From Thermoplasmata archaeon (lineage in GTDB: Archaea; Thermoplasmatota; Thermoplasmata; Thermoplasmatales; Thermoplasmataceae): a stretch of 43,854 nucleotides of DNA. Made by a program: the position numbers and the translations under genes. The stretch covers positions 1 to 43,854 of the forward strand of contig WAQW01000012.1 of the NCBI GenBank assembly GCA_015520045.1. Direction: 5' to 3'. The notes beneath the pieces were generated by a model. That model saw nothing but the letters and a program-made list of their open reading frames with translations, was not told where the DNA came from and made no database searches. Of the stretch, positions 35,169 through 43,842 are shown one piece after another; the stretch's first letter is position 1; every line of letters begins with the position of its first letter.

Positions 35169-35948
35169 TCAGGGAGACATTGTTGTTATGACCCTGTCAA
35201 CCATCTCGTAAAATTCACTGCTTCGTGTGTTTCTGGGCCTCGGGAGATCGATGGAGATCTCGCCTATCACCCTTCCTGGTCTGTGACTCAGAATGACTAT
35301 CCTATCACTCATCTGAACTGCCTCATCGACGTTGTGAGTAACCATAAGAACCGTTTTTGGAGGGAGCTCTGGGTTTTCCCAGAGATCCAGGAGCTCCTCC
35401 CTGAGGGCCTGAGCAGAAAAAACATCCAGACCCACAAATGGCTCGTCCATAAGTAAAATATCCTCCGCAACCGAGAGAGATCTGGCGATAGAGACCCTCT
35501 GCTTCATTCCACCAGAGAGTTCCCTGGGATATGCCTTTTCAAACCCGTCAAGCCCCACCATCTTCAGATACTTTTTTGCGATGCTCTCCCGTTCCTTCTT
35601 ATCGCGGACGAACGATTCAAGAACCACCTCAATGTTCTTGATCACGTTGAGCCAGGGAAAGAGGGCGTGGAACTGAAACACCATTCCAATACGGGGATTT
35701 GTATCCCTGAGAGGTTTACCCTCAAATAGGAGCTCACCAGATACTGGAGTGATCAGGCCGAGGATCATCTTCAGGATGGTGGACTTACCACATCCCGAGG
35801 GTCCTATGAGTGTTACAAATTCCCCTCTGTTTACGGTAAAACTTACATCCTGGACCGTTACTACTTCCTTTGTTTTATATTTGAACGACATCTTCACATC
35901 GTTGACTTCAAGTAGAGGGGAAACCACGAACCTAAAATGTCTGTTCAT
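35169..35948 (-). CDS. ABC transporter ATP-binding protein, nitrate/sulfonate/taurine (SsuB/TauB) type
   Basis: 259 residues. Walker [10 protein letters not shown] (49-57), Q loop [12 protein letters not shown] near 91, signature [15 protein letters not shown] near 144-158, Walker B ILLMDEPF (164-171), H loop VTHNVDEA. The PWLNV after the Q loop is typical of the taurine/sulfonate/nitrate import group. No permease or binding protein is nearby, so it must work with components elsewhere or be left over. Sulfonate uptake would fit with the sulfoquinovose gene close by, but this is only suggestive. The start could also be an internal codon, since the first 12 residues are atypical. Confidence 0.88.
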
Positions 35949-36125
35949 TAATCTTTTTTGTTGTCCTCTTGAAAATCAAGACCGTGTGAGAACTGGATGA
36001 TGATACCTTTTTCTGGTTTAGATAACCGCACACATCCTTAACCCCGACCCCGTTAAATTGGGGACATAATGCAAAAGATTTTTAAAACCATGGCAATGAT
36101 CTTCCACCTGAAAAGTGGTGTTTGT

Positions 36126-36740
36126 ATGTTCAGAAGGAAAAAGGAGGGTGCAGATGATGATCTGGATGATACCGAGTTCAGGGTATATCCAGATTATCCA
36201 CTGAAGATGTGTCCTCTCTGTTCCAGAAGCTACGATGACGGTTCATCTTTCTGCAGATATGATGGCCAGAAGCTCGCTATAGTTGATGTGAAAACCATAT
36301 CAGGAACACGGAAGGAGATTAAATGCCCGTACTGTGAGAATACCGTCGTACCCGTGGATCACGGTATCTGTCCCATATGCAGAAACGTCATAGTACCCTC
36401 GTCTTCCGGTAGAGGTATGAGGATCCGCCTCAGAGTGGAGGGCCTCTATCCCATCGATATAGATGAGTTTCCATACCGTTTTGGCAGGAAGGACATCTCC
36501 AGGCTTCCACACTCTGAGTACATCAATCCGTATCATCTGGAGTTTTCAGTTGTGGATAACCGCATAATGATCAGGGATCACAGGTCTCTGAACGGCACGA
36601 AGCTTAACGAGACGGTTATAGGAGGTAAGAATAAGAGTTACGGTTATTTTGCGGTTCGTGATGGTGATACAATAGAGCTTGGTCTCAATGAGGATAAAAA
36701 GGGATTGATTAAAATGAAGGTATCTCTTTATGAGTGGTAG
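36126..36740 (+). CDS. Cytoplasmic protein with two zinc ribbons and a C-terminal FHA domain
   Basis: 204 residues from ATG 36126; an upstream in-frame ATG at 36069 precedes a TATA-like TTTTTAAAACC (36078-36088) and is unlikely. Order: acidic linker; a C-x2-C-x10-C-x2-D ribbon (CPLCSRSYDDGSSFCRYDG, 29-47); a C-x2-C...C-x2-C ribbon (C67, C70, C82, C85); then an FHA domain (about 100-204) with YRFGRKDIS near 117, NPYHLEF, and SLNGTKLN near 154-161. FHA domains bind phosphothreonine peptides, so this is a likely reader for the kinase encoded next. The gene is followed 40 nt later by that kinase; no membrane segment is seen. Confidence 0.85.
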   Translation: MFRRKKEGADDDLDDTEFRVYPDYPLKMCPLCSRSYDDGSSFCRYDGQKLAIVDVKTISGTRKEIKCPYCENTVVPVDHGICPICRNVIVPSSSGRGMRIRLRVEGLYPIDIDEFPYRFGRKDISRLPHSEYINPYHLEFSVVDNRIMIRDHRSLNGTKLNETVIGGKNKSYGYFAVRDGDTIELGLNEDKKGLIKMKVSLYEW

Positions 36741-36780
36741 GCCCGGTTTCATCAGCACAGTCATTGGGAGATTGTTCTGA

Positions 36781-39390
36781 ATGGATTACGCGGCTGTGAG
36801 AAAGGCACTGTTTTACGTTGAATACGGATCCATACTCGTATTTGCACTTCTGCTTCTTTCAGCTTCTTCCATAGGTTACGATCCCCTTACCCTTTACTTT
36901 TCAAGTGGACAGATAGAGACTTTTATAGTGATATTCATAGGGGTTGTGTGGGCCATACTCATCGCCATGGGTAAGGCCGGCCTTGACACAGACTCAAACT
37001 CACATCTCAGCAGGGCGTCAAGAGCGGTACTTCTTTTCTTTATGTTCTTCTCTACATTCTTCTCCTGGAATTTCCTGTACGAAAGTGTACCGGCTTACTA
37101 TCAGATGATCCTGGTGGTTTCATTCATCCCTCTCTACACCTTTCAGGATCTGAGGAAGAAGAAGCCACAATCCAGCGAATCACCTACCCATCTTGGCCGA
37201 AACATTGCAGTTTTTCTCTCTGTTATTTTCTCTGAATATATGATTCTGTTCGGGTTCATCCAGATTGAGCTCATAGCACTCTTCTCCCTCATTTTCACCC
37301 TCCTGTCTTTGGGTGGAAAAACCGCTTACTCAGAGAGGATATTCCTCTCTGTGAGGATAATTCTACCAGTATCAATATCATTTGTTCTTTTTGAGTATTA
37401 CGGCCTGTACGGGATTCTCAGGTTGAATGGAGTCATTGCATATGCCCTTCTCGGTCTGGCAGCTATTCTCATATCGGTGGGGCTGGTATACTTCAGGGGA
37501 AGAAAAGTGATATTCATCTCCTCGATGGTTGTGTTGTTTATATCTGGAATATTTGGCATAGAGGAGCTTTTCCATTTTTACAATAATTACGCCACACTCC
37601 TGTTAATTGCTACGATCGTTACGGGCTGGTTTATCTGGCTTTCTGGAAAGGCAACGCTTGAGGATAACAGGAACATTGGGGACTCATTCAAGATCGTTAG
37701 ATCCGGAAGGCTATATTTTGCACTGGTTCTTGCCATTGCTGCTTATGGATACTTTCGGCTCTTCAATTACCAGTTCCTCGATGTTGCGTCTGTCTCCTTA
37801 CCCGTTCTTGAGGGCACATTCGTCAACACTCTGAATTACATACTGAACAACACCACCGGTATTACCTCTATCATAATCATTGGTGTGATGGGTATTGCTG
37901 TTGCCATCGGTTCCAGAAAGATAAATGTCATCCTATTTTCCATCCTGATTCTTTTGTTTTTCGCCGGGCTCCACGACATCGCAACTATCAGGATTAAGGG
38001 GGTGTGGGACTTACCATATGATCTTGGTAGCATTGTTGCGATAATCGTAACCATTCTGGTTTTCTACGAACCCACCTTCAGGTTCCTGCGTTCCTATACA
38101 TCTAGGATACCAAGAAAATTCTCTCTTAGTTTTCAGATAGGTTCCGCCTCATATCTGTACGGCCGTTTCGATGTTGATACCCGCATTGACAAGAAGAACA
38201 ATAAGGATTTTCTTGGGGCCGGTGGGTTTGCTTACGTTTTTCGGGGTAGGGATATGCTCACCGGCCGGAGCGTGGTCTTAAAAATGCCCAGGGTGTTTGA
38301 CGAGGAATCGAAATCGGAGAAGGAGAAAAAATTTCTGCTTCAGGAATCAATGCGACAACTCTATGAGGAAAGCAGAATACTTTCCAAGGTGAATTATCCC
38401 GGTATAGTAAAGTTCGTGGGCTACCTGCGCGACGGAGATCGCCATTTTCTGGCTGAGGAATATGTGGATGGAAAGAACATGTCACGTCTTCTGGGGGATC
38501 GGCAGAAAAGGGGAGTGGCGTTCGACGAACAGGAAACTATCGAGATAGCACTGAACCTTCTCTTTTCTCTGAACTATCTACATCTTCACGATATATACCA
38601 TCGTGATCTCAACCCAGGAAACATCGTACTTACAAAATCCGGACCGGTGATAATTGATTTCGGGACCTCAAAGAGTTTCGCAAACAGAACCTCCACAGCC
38701 TTCTTTACCCACAGCCAGAGAATCGGCGTTCCATGTTACCACCCTCCTGAACTGGATCTGATAGATAAAATAAGCATATCTCCGGCTTACGATACCTTCT
38801 CCATCGGTGCGTTGATGTGCTCAATGCTAACCGGAGAATTCCTGGATGCCAGTGAGATGAAGAAGAGATATGGTTATGAATTCATTACTCAGGAGTACCT
38901 CCAGATGGAGATAAGGCCAAAGTGTTCTGACTGGCTTTTTGGGATAATATCCAGATCGCTTTCCTATAAACCCGAGGAGAGATACCAGAGCGCATTTGAG
39001 ATGATAGCTGATCTACTTGGCATATACGGAAACTTCCTCGTAACAGATCTTGGAATTATATATCCTCTTGAGATAAACTATGTGTATGATGTTATAATAT
39101 CACCACACGTGAAGGCTCCAGTACCTTCAAAAAGTGTTATTCGGAGCAAACAGATCAAGGTGCTTGGAAAAGGAAAAAATTCAGAGGTTAAAGTTGGCGA
39201 GATCTCCTATTCTAAAAGCACTGGATGGTTCAGATACAATTCAAAGAGCAAAGTGGCAATATATGCGAAGGAGACGGGCTCACTCGCGGAGAAGAGGAAC
39301 TCTATTTCGCTGATCCCGAGGAAAATATACTCATTCACGCCGGATCTGAAGTTCGGTTCCTTCTCGGTTTACACTGTAAGGGGTCATTGA
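36781..39390 (+). CDS. Multi-spanning membrane Ser/Thr protein kinase (eukaryotic-like) with FHA-like tail
   Basis: 869 residues. Residues 1-440 hold about 12-14 hydrophobic segments. The kinase domain follows: glycine loop GAGGFAYVFRG (479-489), VLK lysine K501, catalytic HRDLNPGN (607-614, with D609 and N614; N replaces the usual K of HRDLKP), DFG at 626-628, then a TFSIG segment. After about residue 750 a strand-rich tail (IKVLGKGKNSEVKVGEI near 800, ending VYTVRGH) resembles a degenerate FHA domain without the usual conserved R/S/H. All kinase catalytic residues are present. The start is supported by GGGAGAT about 9-11 nt upstream. PP2C begins directly after the stop codon, so the two are coupled. 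Confidence 0.9.
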   Translation: MDYAAVRKALFYVEYGSILVFALLLLSASSIGYDPLTLYFSSGQIETFIVIFIGVVWAILIAMGKAGLDTDSNSHLSRASRAVLLFFMFFSTFFSWNFLYESVPAYYQMILVVSFIPLYTFQDLRKKKPQSSESPTHLGRNIAVFLSVIFSEYMILFGFIQIELIALFSLIFTLLSLGGKTAYSERIFLSVRIILPVSISFVLFEYYGLYGILRLNGVIAYALLGLAAILISVGLVYFRGRKVIFISSMVVLFISGIFGIEELFHFYNNYATLLLIATIVTGWFIWLSGKATLEDNRNIGDSFKIVRSGRLYFALVLAIAAYGYFRLFNYQFLDVASVSLPVLEGTFVNTLNYILNNTTGITSIIIIGVMGIAVAIGSRKINVILFSILILLFFAGLHDIATIRIKGVWDLPYDLGSIVAIIVTILVFYEPTFRFLRSYTSRIPRKFSLSFQIGSASYLYGRFDVDTRIDKKNNKDFLGAGGFAYVFRGRDMLTGRSVVLKMPRVFDEESKSEKEKKFLLQESMRQLYEESRILSKVNYPGIVKFVGYLRDGDRHFLAEEYVDGKNMSRLLGDRQKRGVAFDEQETIEIALNLLFSLNYLHLHDIYHRDLNPGNIVLTKSGPVIIDFGTSKSFANRTSTAFFTHSQRIGVPCYHPPELDLIDKISISPAYDTFSIGALMCSMLTGEFLDASEMKKRYGYEFITQEYLQMEIRPKCSDWLFGIISRSLSYKPEERYQSAFEMIADLLGIYGNFLVTDLGIIYPLEINYVYDVIISPHVKAPVPSKSVIRSKQIKVLGKGKNSEVKVGEISYSKSTGWFRYNSKSKVAIYAKETGSLAEKRNSISLIPRKIYSFTPDLKFGSFSVYTVRGH

Positions 39391-40200
39391 ATGGATATTG
39401 GAACTGTTAGTATAAAGGGAAAGGTTAGGGAAAGGGACGAGGATGCTATCCTGGTTATTCTCAACGAATCGCTGTATGAGGGGAAATCTCGAGAGGTGTG
39501 TTTCTGTGCTCTCGCTGATGGCATGGGAGGTTTGCACGGAGGAGATGTTGCAAGCAGAATCGCCATCAGAACCATGGAAAGTATAGGGAACAAGTTGATT
39601 TCTCAGAACATAACCGATACCGATATGATTTTTTCAGAAATCTCCGATGGTTTTGAGAGAGCGAACAGGAACATAGTTGAATTCTCTCGGGAAAAAGGTA
39701 TTGAAAGCATGGGCACAACGATGATTGTGGTATACTACACCGATGGGTTCTACTTTGTGGGTAATCTGGGGGACAGCAGGGCTTTTCTGTTCAACAACCG
39801 TAAAGTCTCCACCCGCACGGTGGACCACTCTCTTGTCCAGACAATGGTTCTGTCCGGTGAACTTTCTGAAGAGGAGATGTCAACTCATCCACGGAGAAAT
39901 GAACTTACCAGGGCGCTTGGAATTGGTTTCAACAAACCGGATCTCTACAAATGGCGTGCCTTCAACGGGGATGCTCTCCTTCTCTGCTGTGATGGGCTAT
40001 GGGAATCCCTCGATCGAGAGACCCTCGCTCTGTCTGCAAATTCCAAAATGAGTGCGCAAGAAACGATTCTTCAACTCTCAGAACTGGCCAACGAATTTGA
40101 TGGAAGTGACAATATATCTGCTATATTGTTCAGGCCACGGATCAGACGATCAATGGAGAAGTACAGTAAGAAACCAACCATAAGGATAACGAGCCAGTGA
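39391..40200 (+). CDS. PP2C-type protein serine/threonine phosphatase
   Basis: 269 residues, Mg/Mn-dependent PPM family: VRERDEDAI (12-20), ADGMGGLHGGDVAS (42-55, metal D43), SMGTTMIV near 107, GNLGDSRAF (124-132), CCDGLWES (199-206, D201) and GSDNISAIL (238-246, D240). It starts at the base after the kinase stop codon and should reverse kinase action on common substrates. It is cytosolic, without signal or membrane segment; the C-terminus is basic. Confidence 0.94.
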   Translation: MDIGTVSIKGKVRERDEDAILVILNESLYEGKSREVCFCALADGMGGLHGGDVASRIAIRTMESIGNKLISQNITDTDMIFSEISDGFERANRNIVEFSREKGIESMGTTMIVVYYTDGFYFVGNLGDSRAFLFNNRKVSTRTVDHSLVQTMVLSGELSEEEMSTHPRRNELTRALGIGFNKPDLYKWRAFNGDALLLCCDGLWESLDRETLALSANSKMSAQETILQLSELANEFDGSDNISAILFRPRIRRSMEKYSKKPTIRITSQ

Positions 40201-40342: not shown

Positions 40343-41575
40343 TTAGAAAAGATTGATCTGCTGCGTGAGCAGGCTGTTAAGCCCGGATGTTGAAACCAGC
40401 GAGGTTCCAGAGTACTGAATTAGTATGAAATAGCTCTTGAAGTGGGCCACAACAGTCTGAGTGTAGATCATCTTATGGAATTCCATTGACGAATGGCTCC
40501 CTGTGACAATTATGACCATGGCGCCACTCACGTTCTGCTCAACCGTGGCATTGTGATCAGAACTGAGCATGTAGAGTAAATCCGTGAAGAGTGTATCGGG
40601 CATATTCGAATTCTTGAATTTAACAAATGATATGGCAGTCTTGTTCAGGTGACCGGAAGAGTATCCCATTACCGCCACCTGCGACAGATTTCCGAAAGTC
40701 TGGTTAATAAGCATCCTGACTGTGGAGGTTTGCCCCTTAAGGCTCGGAGAGAACTCGTTGATAATTCCCTGTGGATTATTAATCTCGATATTGATGCCAA
40801 AAACGCTGTTCCACGATCCTCCTATGGAGGTACTCAGATCGTTCGTAGAAACGAAGATGCTATTAACACTGGGAGTTGATTGCGATGACAGTAGTGACAG
40901 TTGCTGACCGTACAGTGCGGTGAAATTGGACATTGGTATATTTATTGGGGTCATGTATAAAATTACAATGATGCTGCTTCCCTTGTAACCCATCAGCATT
41001 GAGATATACTGGTGTGATGGATCAATATGCGAGGAGTTATGGTAGGTCCACATGTAGATGTAGGGCGCAGAGGAGAGCGTCCCCTTGTAGACCTTCATGG
41101 TGTTGTTCACGAACACATCAGGGATTTTTGAATTCACGTAGGTAAAGGTTGCGTTGGCATCAGCGCTATTTCTGTAGTTCGCTATACCCACAGAAGCGAA
41201 TCCATGGTATTTGGTTGGAGAAAAGATGGAGAACTGGAATGAGGAGATGTTCCCGTAGACGCTCTGGCTGGGAGCTGGGATCTGCGAATAGGGCGTGTAC
41301 ATATAATTGTTGCTTCCAGAGGGGAACATAGAGGGGCCACTCATATCACCCATGAATGAGGAGAGATTCCCGGCAGTACCATACCCAGAACTTGCTCGGT
41401 TCCACTTCCCACCCAGTGATTTATTAACAGCCGATGAACTCACCACATTTGGAGCGAACTTATTAGCGGTGGTGCTGGAACCGGGTAGTTTTAGGGATCC
41501 GCCCATGTATGCCATACCGACTACTATTCCTATTATAACCAATATTACTACAATCGCTACACCTGCTTTCTTCAT
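40343..41575 (-). CDS. Membrane-anchored extracellular protein with two related domains, function unknown
   Basis: 410 residues from ATG 41575; the frame is open to 41797, but a TATA (minus, TTTTTATATAC, near 41597-41607) lies about 25-30 bp before ATG 41575. Residues 1-24 (MKKAGVAIVVILVIIGIVVG) are a signal anchor, so the rest is outside. The chain is rich in Ser, Asn and Tyr. Two similar halves are visible: SAVNKSLGGKWN (48-59) against NDLSTSIGGSWN (245-256), and ANATFTYVNSKIPDVF (140-155) against NKTAISFVKFKNSNMPDTLF (shown in part, 311-330). No known family recognised. Confidence 0.75.
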   Translation of the reverse strand: MKKAGVAIVVILVIIGIVVGMAYMGGSLKLPGSSTTANKFAPNVVSSSAVNKSLGGKWNRASSGYGTAGNLSSFMGDMSGPSMFPSGSNNYMYTPYSQIPAPSQSVYGNISSFQFSIFSPTKYHGFASVGIANYRNSADANATFTYVNSKIPDVFVNNTMKVYKGTLSSAPYIYMWTYHNSSHIDPSHQYISMLMGYKGSSIIVILYMTPINIPMSNFTALYGQQLSLLSSQSTPSVNSIFVSTNDLSTSIGGSWNSVFGINIEINNPQGIINEFSPSLKGQTSTVRMLINQTFGNLSQVAVMGYSSGHLNKTAISFVKFKNSNMPDTLFTDLLYMLSSDHNATVEQNVSGAMVIIVTGSHSSMEFHKMIYTQTVVAHFKSYFILIQYSGTSLVSTSGLNSLLTQQINLF

Positions 41576-41853
41576 CACTTTATCAACGAAATTGTATATA
41601 AAAATATTTGGGTATGGTGGCATTGCGTGTATTGGCGACAGCTTACGTAATGTTCTAAATGTGTTTCGTAGCGGCCCAAGTTTTGTGTATTTATAACGGA
41701 TACCTCTCTTAAATTTCAAAGTCACTTGCATTTTTGCATCCCAGTTAATGATATAAATCGAATCAGTTGGTGAGCATCCTATTATGCTCCAGGTCAAAAA
41801 TAGTGTTTGTGTAAATCAAGGTTACACACAAACACCATACATCATATGCAATA
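41576..41853. other. Intergenic region between two surface-protein genes with hairpins
   Basis: Contains a hairpin GAGCAT (41772-41777) with ATGCTC (41784-41789), and a 10-bp inverted repeat GTGTTTGTGT (41803-41812) with ACACAAACAC (41826-41835), 20 bp past the stop of the Hint-domain gene. The latter may be a terminator or processing signal for that gene; the TATA of the next gene is at the left end. Confidence 0.4.
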
Positions 41854-43842
41854 TCATGCCAGCTTCTTGTCCAGTAAGAAACCGTTGGCAATATAGTCTG
41901 ATCTCACTGAACCATTGTTGTTGAAGTTCCTGGCTGTGTGTATGCCATATACAGTGAAGTTCCCAAAGAGAATGGTTAAGTTTGTTATTTGCGTCCAGTT
42001 GTTGTTCAGTGGATTAAACAGCTCCATGCCCGTTGTGAGCTGCCCCACTGTCAACCATTCCTCCGTTCCATTTGGCAGCTTAACGAATATTGGCTGGTCT
42101 TCCATGCCGGACACAAACAATTCTCCATTGTTTATGCTGGTTATCATGGAAACGTTGTTCTCAATAACACTGGTTACTGTTGTCTCCATTAACCTGCCAG
42201 TCTGGATATTATATGAGAGTGTCTTCATGCCCGGGCGAAGATTCTGTACCATAATGCTTGATCCATCAGCGAGTGTAATGTTGGTTCCTGTGAGGACACA
42301 ACCACCACCTGAACCCGGGGAGTCTGGCTGTGCATATACATAGGCAAAGACTGTGGGTACCTGTATGCTGGCACCATCAACCTCCAGGTTCTGGCTTGTG
42401 TAACCGATGTAGAGCTCCGGGGGATTGCTGCTTAAACTGCTATATTCTATCCAGGAAACCGCATAATCCATATCCTGGCTTCCCCACTGAATAAATGCCA
42501 GAGTTTCACCAAGGGCAGAAGACACAAATCCTCCTATGGTGGCTGCAACAGCTGCGGCATCCCCTATTCCAAGTGTAGCTACCCCCAGAACTATCGCACC
42601 TGCACCTATTCCTATACCGGCCAGAGCAGCATAGTTGGTGATATGACTATAAATTAACCACGATGAAATTTCGTACCAACCCGGGGCACCATTAATGGGC
42701 CATGAATTATTGTGATATTTTAAGGTCATGTACGGTTGCTGCTCGGGATAATAGGTAGGCTGTGTTTTTCCTACACCTCCCATTATGCTGCTTGCATTGT
42801 GTACAATCTGGGTAATCGCAATATCGGTCTGGAACTCTCCCGTTGGTACATAATAAGATTGTCCAGTTACGGGATTATAATGTATCTCATATAGCTCGTA
42901 ATTGGCAACGGTCAGATTCCCACGAATGTAAGCGTAACTCCAGCCATAACCAGTGGAATTTGTAACACCACTTGGTTGGTAAGCAAGGATTGTGTATGCT
43001 CCTGTATTGACACCATTGGAAGTCCCAATGCTTATCTGAACATTGCTGGAGCTGTATGGATTGATGATCTGGCCCATTACATCCGTGGTCTTGCTCCCGG
43101 CGTAAAGAACTTCACCTGCTTCTACCGATCCCGCACCGTAGGTTTCACCCTGAGCTAGAGGAATTTTGAGAGGTGAGCTGTTATTTCCATGCACCAGGGT
43201 TGCATTGGTCTGGTACCAGATCTCAAATATGTTATTGCCGTTTAACCGGGAGGGAGGGGGATTATTCAGGTTGGCATCCGGGATCATGTTTTCAGAACTT
43301 CCATAAGTAACATACGCTTTGAAATCCAGAGGATGTACCTTAACCATCTTATCCGGGATCAACCTGTGGCCGAACCCTTTCCCCGCATGGATATATGCAT
43401 GATAGCTCTCCCCATGGAGCAAAGCTTCTGGTGTCAGCCTTATGGAAGTCTGCTGTGTGTATGTTGCATTATTAACCTTATATGTCAAGAAAACAATGAT
43501 GTAAGGTTGAAATGCGTTGTTGTGTCTTGCGTTGTAACTGATCCACCGGGAAGCCATCTCATGCACCGGTGACATATTCTTAACACTGTACATTCCCCCA
43601 CTGTTGGTCACACCGGCAAATAGAAAAGCGGTACCGTTACCTTCTGATGGGGGGATCTCGATCATTCCCTGCACAGAAGCATTTACCATGGGGAACCCAT
43701 AATCATCAACCACCTGAATTCCTATGGAGGATCCTGAGTCAAAGGGGCCGGTCTTTGTTATTGCCATACCGGCAAAGGCAATGACAATTACCGAAATGAT
43801 CAGTATCGAGGCAATAACCAAACTTTTTTTGTTATTGCTCAT
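41854..43842 (-). CDS. Extracellular protein with C-terminal Hint (hedgehog/intein) domain
   Basis: 662 residues. A signal anchor (SLVIASILIISVIVIAFAGMA, residues 7-27, shown in part) leads to an exported chain beginning with a carboxypeptidase-regulatory-like segment, GIQVVDDYGFPMVNASVQG (41-59). Residues 405-450 are Gly/Ala-rich and hydrophobic and may be a second membrane segment. The Hint domain runs from C515 to about 656: GCVLTGTNITLADGSSI, then MKTLSYNIQTGR, WLTVGQLTTGMELFN and the terminal YIANGFLLDKK. The usual TxxH of block B reads M580-E-D-Q583, and the closing HN is DK, so the N-terminal cysteine is kept but other catalytic residues look lost. Whether it self-cleaves is unknown. 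Confidence 0.8.
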   Translation of the reverse strand: MSNNKKSLVIASILIISVIVIAFAGMAITKTGPFDSGSSIGIQVVDDYGFPMVNASVQGMIEIPPSEGNGTAFLFAGVTNSGGMYSVKNMSPVHEMASRWISYNARHNNAFQPYIIVFLTYKVNNATYTQQTSIRLTPEALLHGESYHAYIHAGKGFGHRLIPDKMVKVHPLDFKAYVTYGSSENMIPDANLNNPPPSRLNGNNIFEIWYQTNATLVHGNNSSPLKIPLAQGETYGAGSVEAGEVLYAGSKTTDVMGQIINPYSSSNVQISIGTSNGVNTGAYTILAYQPSGVTNSTGYGWSYAYIRGNLTVANYELYEIHYNPVTGQSYYVPTGEFQTDIAITQIVHNASSIMGGVGKTQPTYYPEQQPYMTLKYHNNSWPINGAPGWYEISSWLIYSHITNYAALAGIGIGAGAIVLGVATLGIGDAAAVAATIGGFVSSALGETLAFIQWGSQDMDYAVSWIEYSSLSSNPPELYIGYTSQNLEVDGASIQVPTVFAYVYAQPDSPGSGGGCVLTGTNITLADGSSIMVQNLRPGMKTLSYNIQTGRLMETTVTSVIENNVSMITSINNGELFVSGMEDQPIFVKLPNGTEEWLTVGQLTTGMELFNPLNNNWTQITNLTILFGNFTVYGIHTARNFNNNGSVRSDYIANGFLLDKKLA

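Follow-up and report, generated by a model that had tools for sequence, protein, structure and literature searches.

Kinase, phosphatase and FHA loci in bacteria and archaea

Membrane-bound Ser/Thr kinases of the Hanks type are encoded next to Stp1-type PP2C phosphatases in the PknB/PstP (Stk1/Stp1) operons of bacteria, with GarA and FhaA as FHA readers. The threonine phosphorylation pathway of the type VI secretion system (T6SS), PpkA-PppA-Fha1, places the same three activities in one locus. To our knowledge, little has been learned about the archaeal use of Ser/Thr phosphorylation outside the control of motility in Sulfolobus. Here we describe a triad of genes for an FHA protein, a polytopic kinase and a PP2C phosphatase, located at positions 36126-40200 of contig WAQW01000012.1 from an uncultured Thermoplasmata archaeon of the family Thermoplasmataceae (the whole stretch analysed, 43,854 nucleotides, is called the window). 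Searches of the literature available to us returned no paper on this operon. The triad is best read, with moderate confidence, as a self-contained, membrane-anchored Ser/Thr phospho-signalling operon that is regulated through a Thr in the phosphatase tail and read out by the FHA protein. Sensor, writer, eraser and reader would then lie within about 4 kb in these relatives of Thermoplasma.

The triad shares with the PknB/PstP systems the membrane Hanks kinase, the adjacent Stp1-type PP2C and the FHA reader. Its kinase, however, has a 14-span N-terminal domain instead of a single span and lacks PASTA domains: no PASTA match is found in the protein, which scores 100 bits against 450 for the PknB equivalog. 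The triad also differs in that its FHA protein bears zinc ribbons and in being archaeal and confined to one clade. Relative to the T6SS pathway, the distinguishing feature is again the polytopic kinase, and Pfam scans of 19 window genes detected no T6SS genes.

Sulfolobus ArnA combines an N-terminal zinc finger with an FHA domain and, in Sulfolobus acidocaldarius, works with the Ser/Thr kinases ArnC/ArnD and the phosphatase PP2A (PMC5300886, PMC6509490). The single zinc finger of ArnA is of the RanBP2 type (PMC6509490), whereas the triad FHA protein has two ribbons. The Sulfolobus network further differs in that ArnC and ArnD lack membrane spans, the phosphatase is PP2A rather than PP2C, and a vWA protein, ArnB, is a partner; no vWA protein is encoded among the window neighbours scanned. 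Loci linked to ESCRT genes in other archaea hold a membrane kinase and a phosphatase, some of them also an FHA protein (PMC10936438), but these kinases carry an N-terminal span with Ig-like and PCI domains. A first-pass annotation of the window, made from the sequence alone, knew of no named archaeal system with this layout; the ESCRT-linked loci show that there is archaeal precedent. Kinase/FHA/PP2C loci are already known, archaea included; the new parts of the triad are its 14-span domain and the tail of its PP2C.

A conserved unit inherited in one archaeal clade

The three adjacent open reading frames lie on the forward strand in the order FHA protein (36126..36740), kinase (36781-39390, 869 amino acids) and PP2C (39391..40200). 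The longest frame for the FHA protein spans 36069-36740, and the start conserved among relatives is Met20 at 36126, the position given in the first-pass annotation. As had also been described there, the PP2C gene follows directly behind the kinase: its ATG abuts the TGA stop, with 0 nucleotides between them. The upstream neighbour, an ABC ATPase gene (35169-35948), and the downstream one (40343-41797), which has no Pfam match, both run on the opposite strand, so that the triad stands alone as a unit.

Searches covered 121 genomes, comprising the window's own, its family, its order and part of its class. The full kinase is present in 18 of these, distributed over five genera, and is directly followed by the PP2C gene in every one. 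An FHA match was obtained in 15 of the 18, always directly ahead of the kinase; in the other three, the contig stops inside or ahead of the kinase gene. Intergenic gaps range from -32 to +55 nucleotides with many overlaps, apart from a single 115-nucleotide gap in a fragmentary assembly. The genes had been expected to be neighbours in relatives if they formed a system, and their order is kept in every relative with intact contigs. Two named relatives are the Thermoplasmatota bins FK_Sedi_A_Bin.135 and MAS3.bin109, and a complete genome of the family (G023; 1,584,804 bases) is without the triad. Such recurrence is far beyond chance and, judged from the sequences, marks the triad as a real, conserved signalling unit.

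In a phylogeny of DP1, the small subunit of DNA polymerase D, all 18 triad genomes form one clade with support of 98/89, and the kinases branch alike within it, genus by genus. The likeness of the two trees indicates that the triad was put together a single time in this lineage and then inherited together. The FHA-kinase-PP2C unit has thus passed vertically through five genera of the archaeal family.

The membrane domain of the kinase

Residues 1-435 of the kinase (36781..38085) form its membrane domain. Family-averaged hydropathy shows 14 hydrophobic segments, and single sequences yield 11-14 at a fixed threshold. Mean counts of Lys plus Arg are 1.4-6.5 in loops 0, 2, 4 ... 14 versus 0-0.7 in loops 1, 3 ... 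13. This complete positive-inside alternation points to 14 spans rather than 12, so that the large multi-span N-terminus of the first-pass annotation stands and its range of 12-14 spans narrows to the upper value. The alternation also gives an N-in/C-in topology, with both ends and the kinase domain in the cytosol and hardly any of the protein exposed outside.

Searched alone, the membrane domain matches no Pfam family and no PDB chain, and its profile finds triad kinases only. Across 117 genomes of the order, it recovers the 18 triad genomes and three further matches that are marginal (2e-4 to 8e-4), and a sample of 390 genomes from the phylum yields clade members only; in both sets, the domain is never seen without the kinase. 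Profile comparison of parts of the domain revealed no internal repeat, the one high score reflecting overlap of the compared stretches. The fusion of such a domain to a kinase is indeed unusual, as had been claimed, because the domain is unmatched and restricted to the clade and because no S. acidocaldarius kinase has more than five N-terminal spans (PMC5300886).

External loops are short, the longest being about 28 residues, which leaves no extracellular ligand-binding domain. A membrane or surface signal had been proposed for the kinase. The surface half of this proposal fits poorly with such loops, and a small solute or a signal within the membrane appears likelier than a bound surface ligand. 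Fourteen spans with short external loops also look more like a carrier or an enzyme than a ligand receptor, and the domain might be a transporter or membrane enzyme that the fused kinase regulates by phosphorylation with the help of the FHA protein and PP2C. We consider this unlikely. No transporter or enzyme family in Pfam or the PDB was matched, and the domain always comes with the kinase. Few of its residues are invariant (three Gly, one Trp and a YEP motif at the end), unlike in carriers, where polar residues for the substrate are usually conserved.

The catalytic domain of the kinase

A juxtamembrane linker (residues 436-469; 38086..38187) connects the membrane domain to a Hanks-type kinase domain (residues 470-748; 38188..39024), which is followed by a C-terminal tail of about 120 amino acids (39025..39387) that is conserved within the clade. 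The kinase domain matches PF00069 with E=3.5e-35 (122 bits against a cut-off of 31.7), and no other protein of the window's assembled genome (76% complete) matches at 1e-5. In an alignment of 14 orthologues with 30-47% identity to the window copy, the glycine-rich G loop, Lys501, Glu530, HRD 607-609, Asn614, DFG 626-628 and PPE 655-657 are all invariant, including the motifs that the first-pass annotation had recognized. S448, G454, R462, D464 and V465 of the linker are likewise invariant, and R437 and Y439 nearly so. The C-terminal tail was considered as a degenerate FHA domain and rejected (hhalign probability 0.1%). AlphaFold2 models were uninformative, with a confidence score (pLDDT) of 37 for the kinase, from a 3-row alignment, and 32 for the tail.

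PADLOC models of defence kinases match this domain (PD-T4-6, E=6e-37; mad6, 1e-35), which brings up anti-phage defence of the kinase type, as in PD-T4-6, MADS and KKP. These matches are confined to the generic kinase domain, however, and the NCBIfam MAD6 model gives 99.7 bits against a cut-off of 460. The vertical inheritance of the triad, the lack of mobile context and the housekeeping character of its neighbours (PGK, an SRP-type GTPase and DNA polymerase subunits) make a defence function highly improbable.

The phosphatase tail and the FHA protein

The third gene encodes a PP2C (PPM) Ser/Thr phosphatase. It matches PF13672 above the curated cut-off (E=2.8e-13, 50 bits) and the NCBIfam Stp1-type model NF033484 with 192.4 bits, below the equivalog cut-off of 230. 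The nearest solved structures are bacterial Stp1/PstP-type PP2Cs, and these matches assign the protein to the Stp1/PstP type, though not as an equivalog. Its metal-binding motifs are invariant: D43-G47 (DGMGG), G127-R130 (GDSR), D201-G202 and D240-N241.

Triad PP2Cs extend about 15-35 residues past the catalytic core, which ends in NISAILxRP, and this tail is basic and variable. Within it, one position is Thr in 18 of 18 genomes (Thr263 of the window copy, in the motif KKPT; codon 40177..40179). The preceding residue is Pro in 16 and Gln in 2. Upstream of this residue there is a Lys or Arg in all 18 and a further Lys or Arg in 16, so that the motif mostly reads [K/R][K/R]PT. The tail is absent from 18 PP2Cs outside the clade (seven from family f3, six from family f5 and five from genus g12), which end at the core or within a few residues of it. 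Because the Thr is conserved in an otherwise variable basic tail, beside a Ser/Thr kinase and a domain that reads phospho-Thr, it is a candidate site for regulatory phosphorylation by the partner kinase and a possible dock for the FHA protein.

The FHA protein, with its two N-terminal zinc-ribbon-like motifs, agrees with its first description. PF00498 is matched in 15 of 15 family members (31.1 bits against a cut-off of 20.7 for the window copy), as is the double zinc ribbon PF12773, for which the window copy falls just below the cut-off. The first ribbon has invariant Cys 48, 51 and 62 with an invariant Asp65-Gly66, and the second has four invariant Cys (86, 89, 101 and 104). The FHA core keeps its GR...NG residues, with R140, N175 and G176 invariant. 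Among the best solved matches of the FHA profile are archaeal ArnA (5a8i), GarA and 8s05, a structure titled 'conserved protein' that matches the zinc ribbon as well. The resemblance to ArnA and to FHA proteins of kinase pathways such as GarA favours a signalling role.

A proposed membrane-anchored phospho-signalling circuit

The operon might work as follows. The 14-span domain would anchor the kinase in the membrane, with its catalytic domain in the cytosol, and may be the part by which an altered bilayer or a small solute is sensed. As expected from its family, the kinase would phosphorylate itself and client proteins on Thr or Ser, and the co-translated PP2C would undo these modifications. 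The tail Thr of PP2C could be a regulatory site that is phosphorylated by the partner kinase and may, once phosphorylated, dock the FHA-zinc-ribbon protein. The latter would read phospho-Thr and either relay the signal or hold kinase and phosphatase together. In a bolder version, the 14-span domain, fused directly to the Hanks kinase, would represent a receptor class of its own that monitors the condition of the archaeal membrane, with the kinase phosphorylating the tail Thr of its own phosphatase to create an FHA dock and close the circuit; this we put forward tentatively, as rather unlikely. A putative receptor domain that matches no solved structure, together with a defined candidate phosphosite, brings archaeal membrane signalling within reach of experiments on three purified proteins.

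Several observations weigh against the signalling operon as we read it. The usual SxxH of FHA domains is NxxH here (N153, H156), invariant in 15 members, and this replacement may alter affinity for phospho-Thr. In all kinase orthologues, the catalytic-loop Lys is replaced by Asn611 (HRDLNPGN versus HRDxKxxN), so that kinase activity is not assured. Finally, the 18 triad genomes are one clade, and their conservation counts as one origin rather than as repeated evidence. An invariant or nearly invariant GVPCYxPPE also stands in place of the usual GTxxYxAPE. RIO and Bud32 kinases lack the catalytic-loop Lys as well, and neither oddity of the triad kinase appears to exclude activity.

What the circuit controls could be sought among the known outputs of archaeal FHA/kinase systems. 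The FHA profile matches ArnA, and other archaea carry kinase-phosphatase-FHA loci beside their ESCRT genes (PMC10936438), so that the operon might be a local form of archaellum control (ArnA/ArnC/PP2A) or of ESCRT regulation. Snf7/ESCRT-III was found in 0 of the 18 triad genomes, compared with 19 of the other genomes searched. Archaellin scored above the cut-off in 46 genomes, none with the triad; G040 gave a single weak match. Other genera of the family readily yield both ESCRT-III and archaellin, and no ESCRT or archaellum gene occurs among the triad neighbours examined. The triad bins are 62-96% complete, and it is improbable that incompleteness accounts for 18 joint absences. These results largely refute both outputs. 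The signalling operon that we favour probably has an output that is new for circuits of this kind.

Genomic context and related loci

Family B DNA polymerase genes lie just upstream of the triad in genera g10, g14 and g15 (L046, L048, L049, L050, L051, L052, L054), and the polymerase D small subunit lies downstream unless split off, as in G010. The position of the triad between two polymerase genes, and a report of S. islandicus ArnA as a repressor in the DNA damage response (PMC10470591), could suggest a link to replication or damage response. Such a link is very unlikely, since the window genome and G010 have the triad and the DP1-side genes on different contigs, the upstream side differs in g1 and g2, and DP1 and its partner gene c4 stay paired with or without the triad. 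Gene c4 is class-wide, accompanies DP1 and was rejected as part of the triad.

Another gene of this region, c5, encodes proteins of about 107 amino acids that begin with MDC and have no Pfam match. Its usual place is between PP2C and DP1; in the window genome (L067:2214-2534, G000:C31) and in G010 it is on another contig than the triad. Its distribution coincides exactly with the 18 triad genomes, yet these are one clade, and c5 stays with DP1 in G000 and G010, where triad and DP1 lie apart. It was therefore not accepted as a fourth component.

Triads of the same gene order, with overlapping genes, are found in family f5 of the same taxonomic order (mostly genus g27; L056-L058, L075, L076), where they are mostly beside Sua5 and M24 peptidase genes. 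They consist of an FHA-FHA protein, a kinase and a PP2C, but their kinase lacks the 14-span part and their PP2C lacks the tail. Homology of these triads to that of the window as a unit was rejected, because the two sets of kinases branch apart, although the branches are long and leave some uncertainty. With the same caveat, the layout seems to have been assembled more than once in the order.

Other kinase genes in these genomes occur in different combinations. Two kinase-PP2C copies are present in G054 (contigs C128 and C32; L053, L107), one of them closely resembling that of G043, and the duplication reflects either a paralogue or contamination from a second species. At L055:705-6268, a kinase-PP2C pair lies beside a gene for a 1565-amino-acid, probably secreted or membrane protein with vWA and C-terminal FHA domains, which recalls a fusion of ArnA and ArnB. 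Proteins of 1230-1265 amino acids that join a kinase domain to an AAA_16 NTPase and TPR-like repeats (L068:2474-6184, L073:8230-11997) are patchy in relatives within the family and in f3. In genus g16, the gene behind that of a 555-amino-acid kinase (L074:7267-9832) encodes a protein whose GDSHGD motif by eye resembles PPP-family phosphatases rather than PP2C. Within the window, the reverse strand encodes a 662-amino-acid protein (41854-43842) with an N-terminal hydrophobic segment, whose C-terminus, behind a Gly-rich linker, resembles a Hint (hedgehog/intein-type) domain (Pfam Vint, E=0.08).

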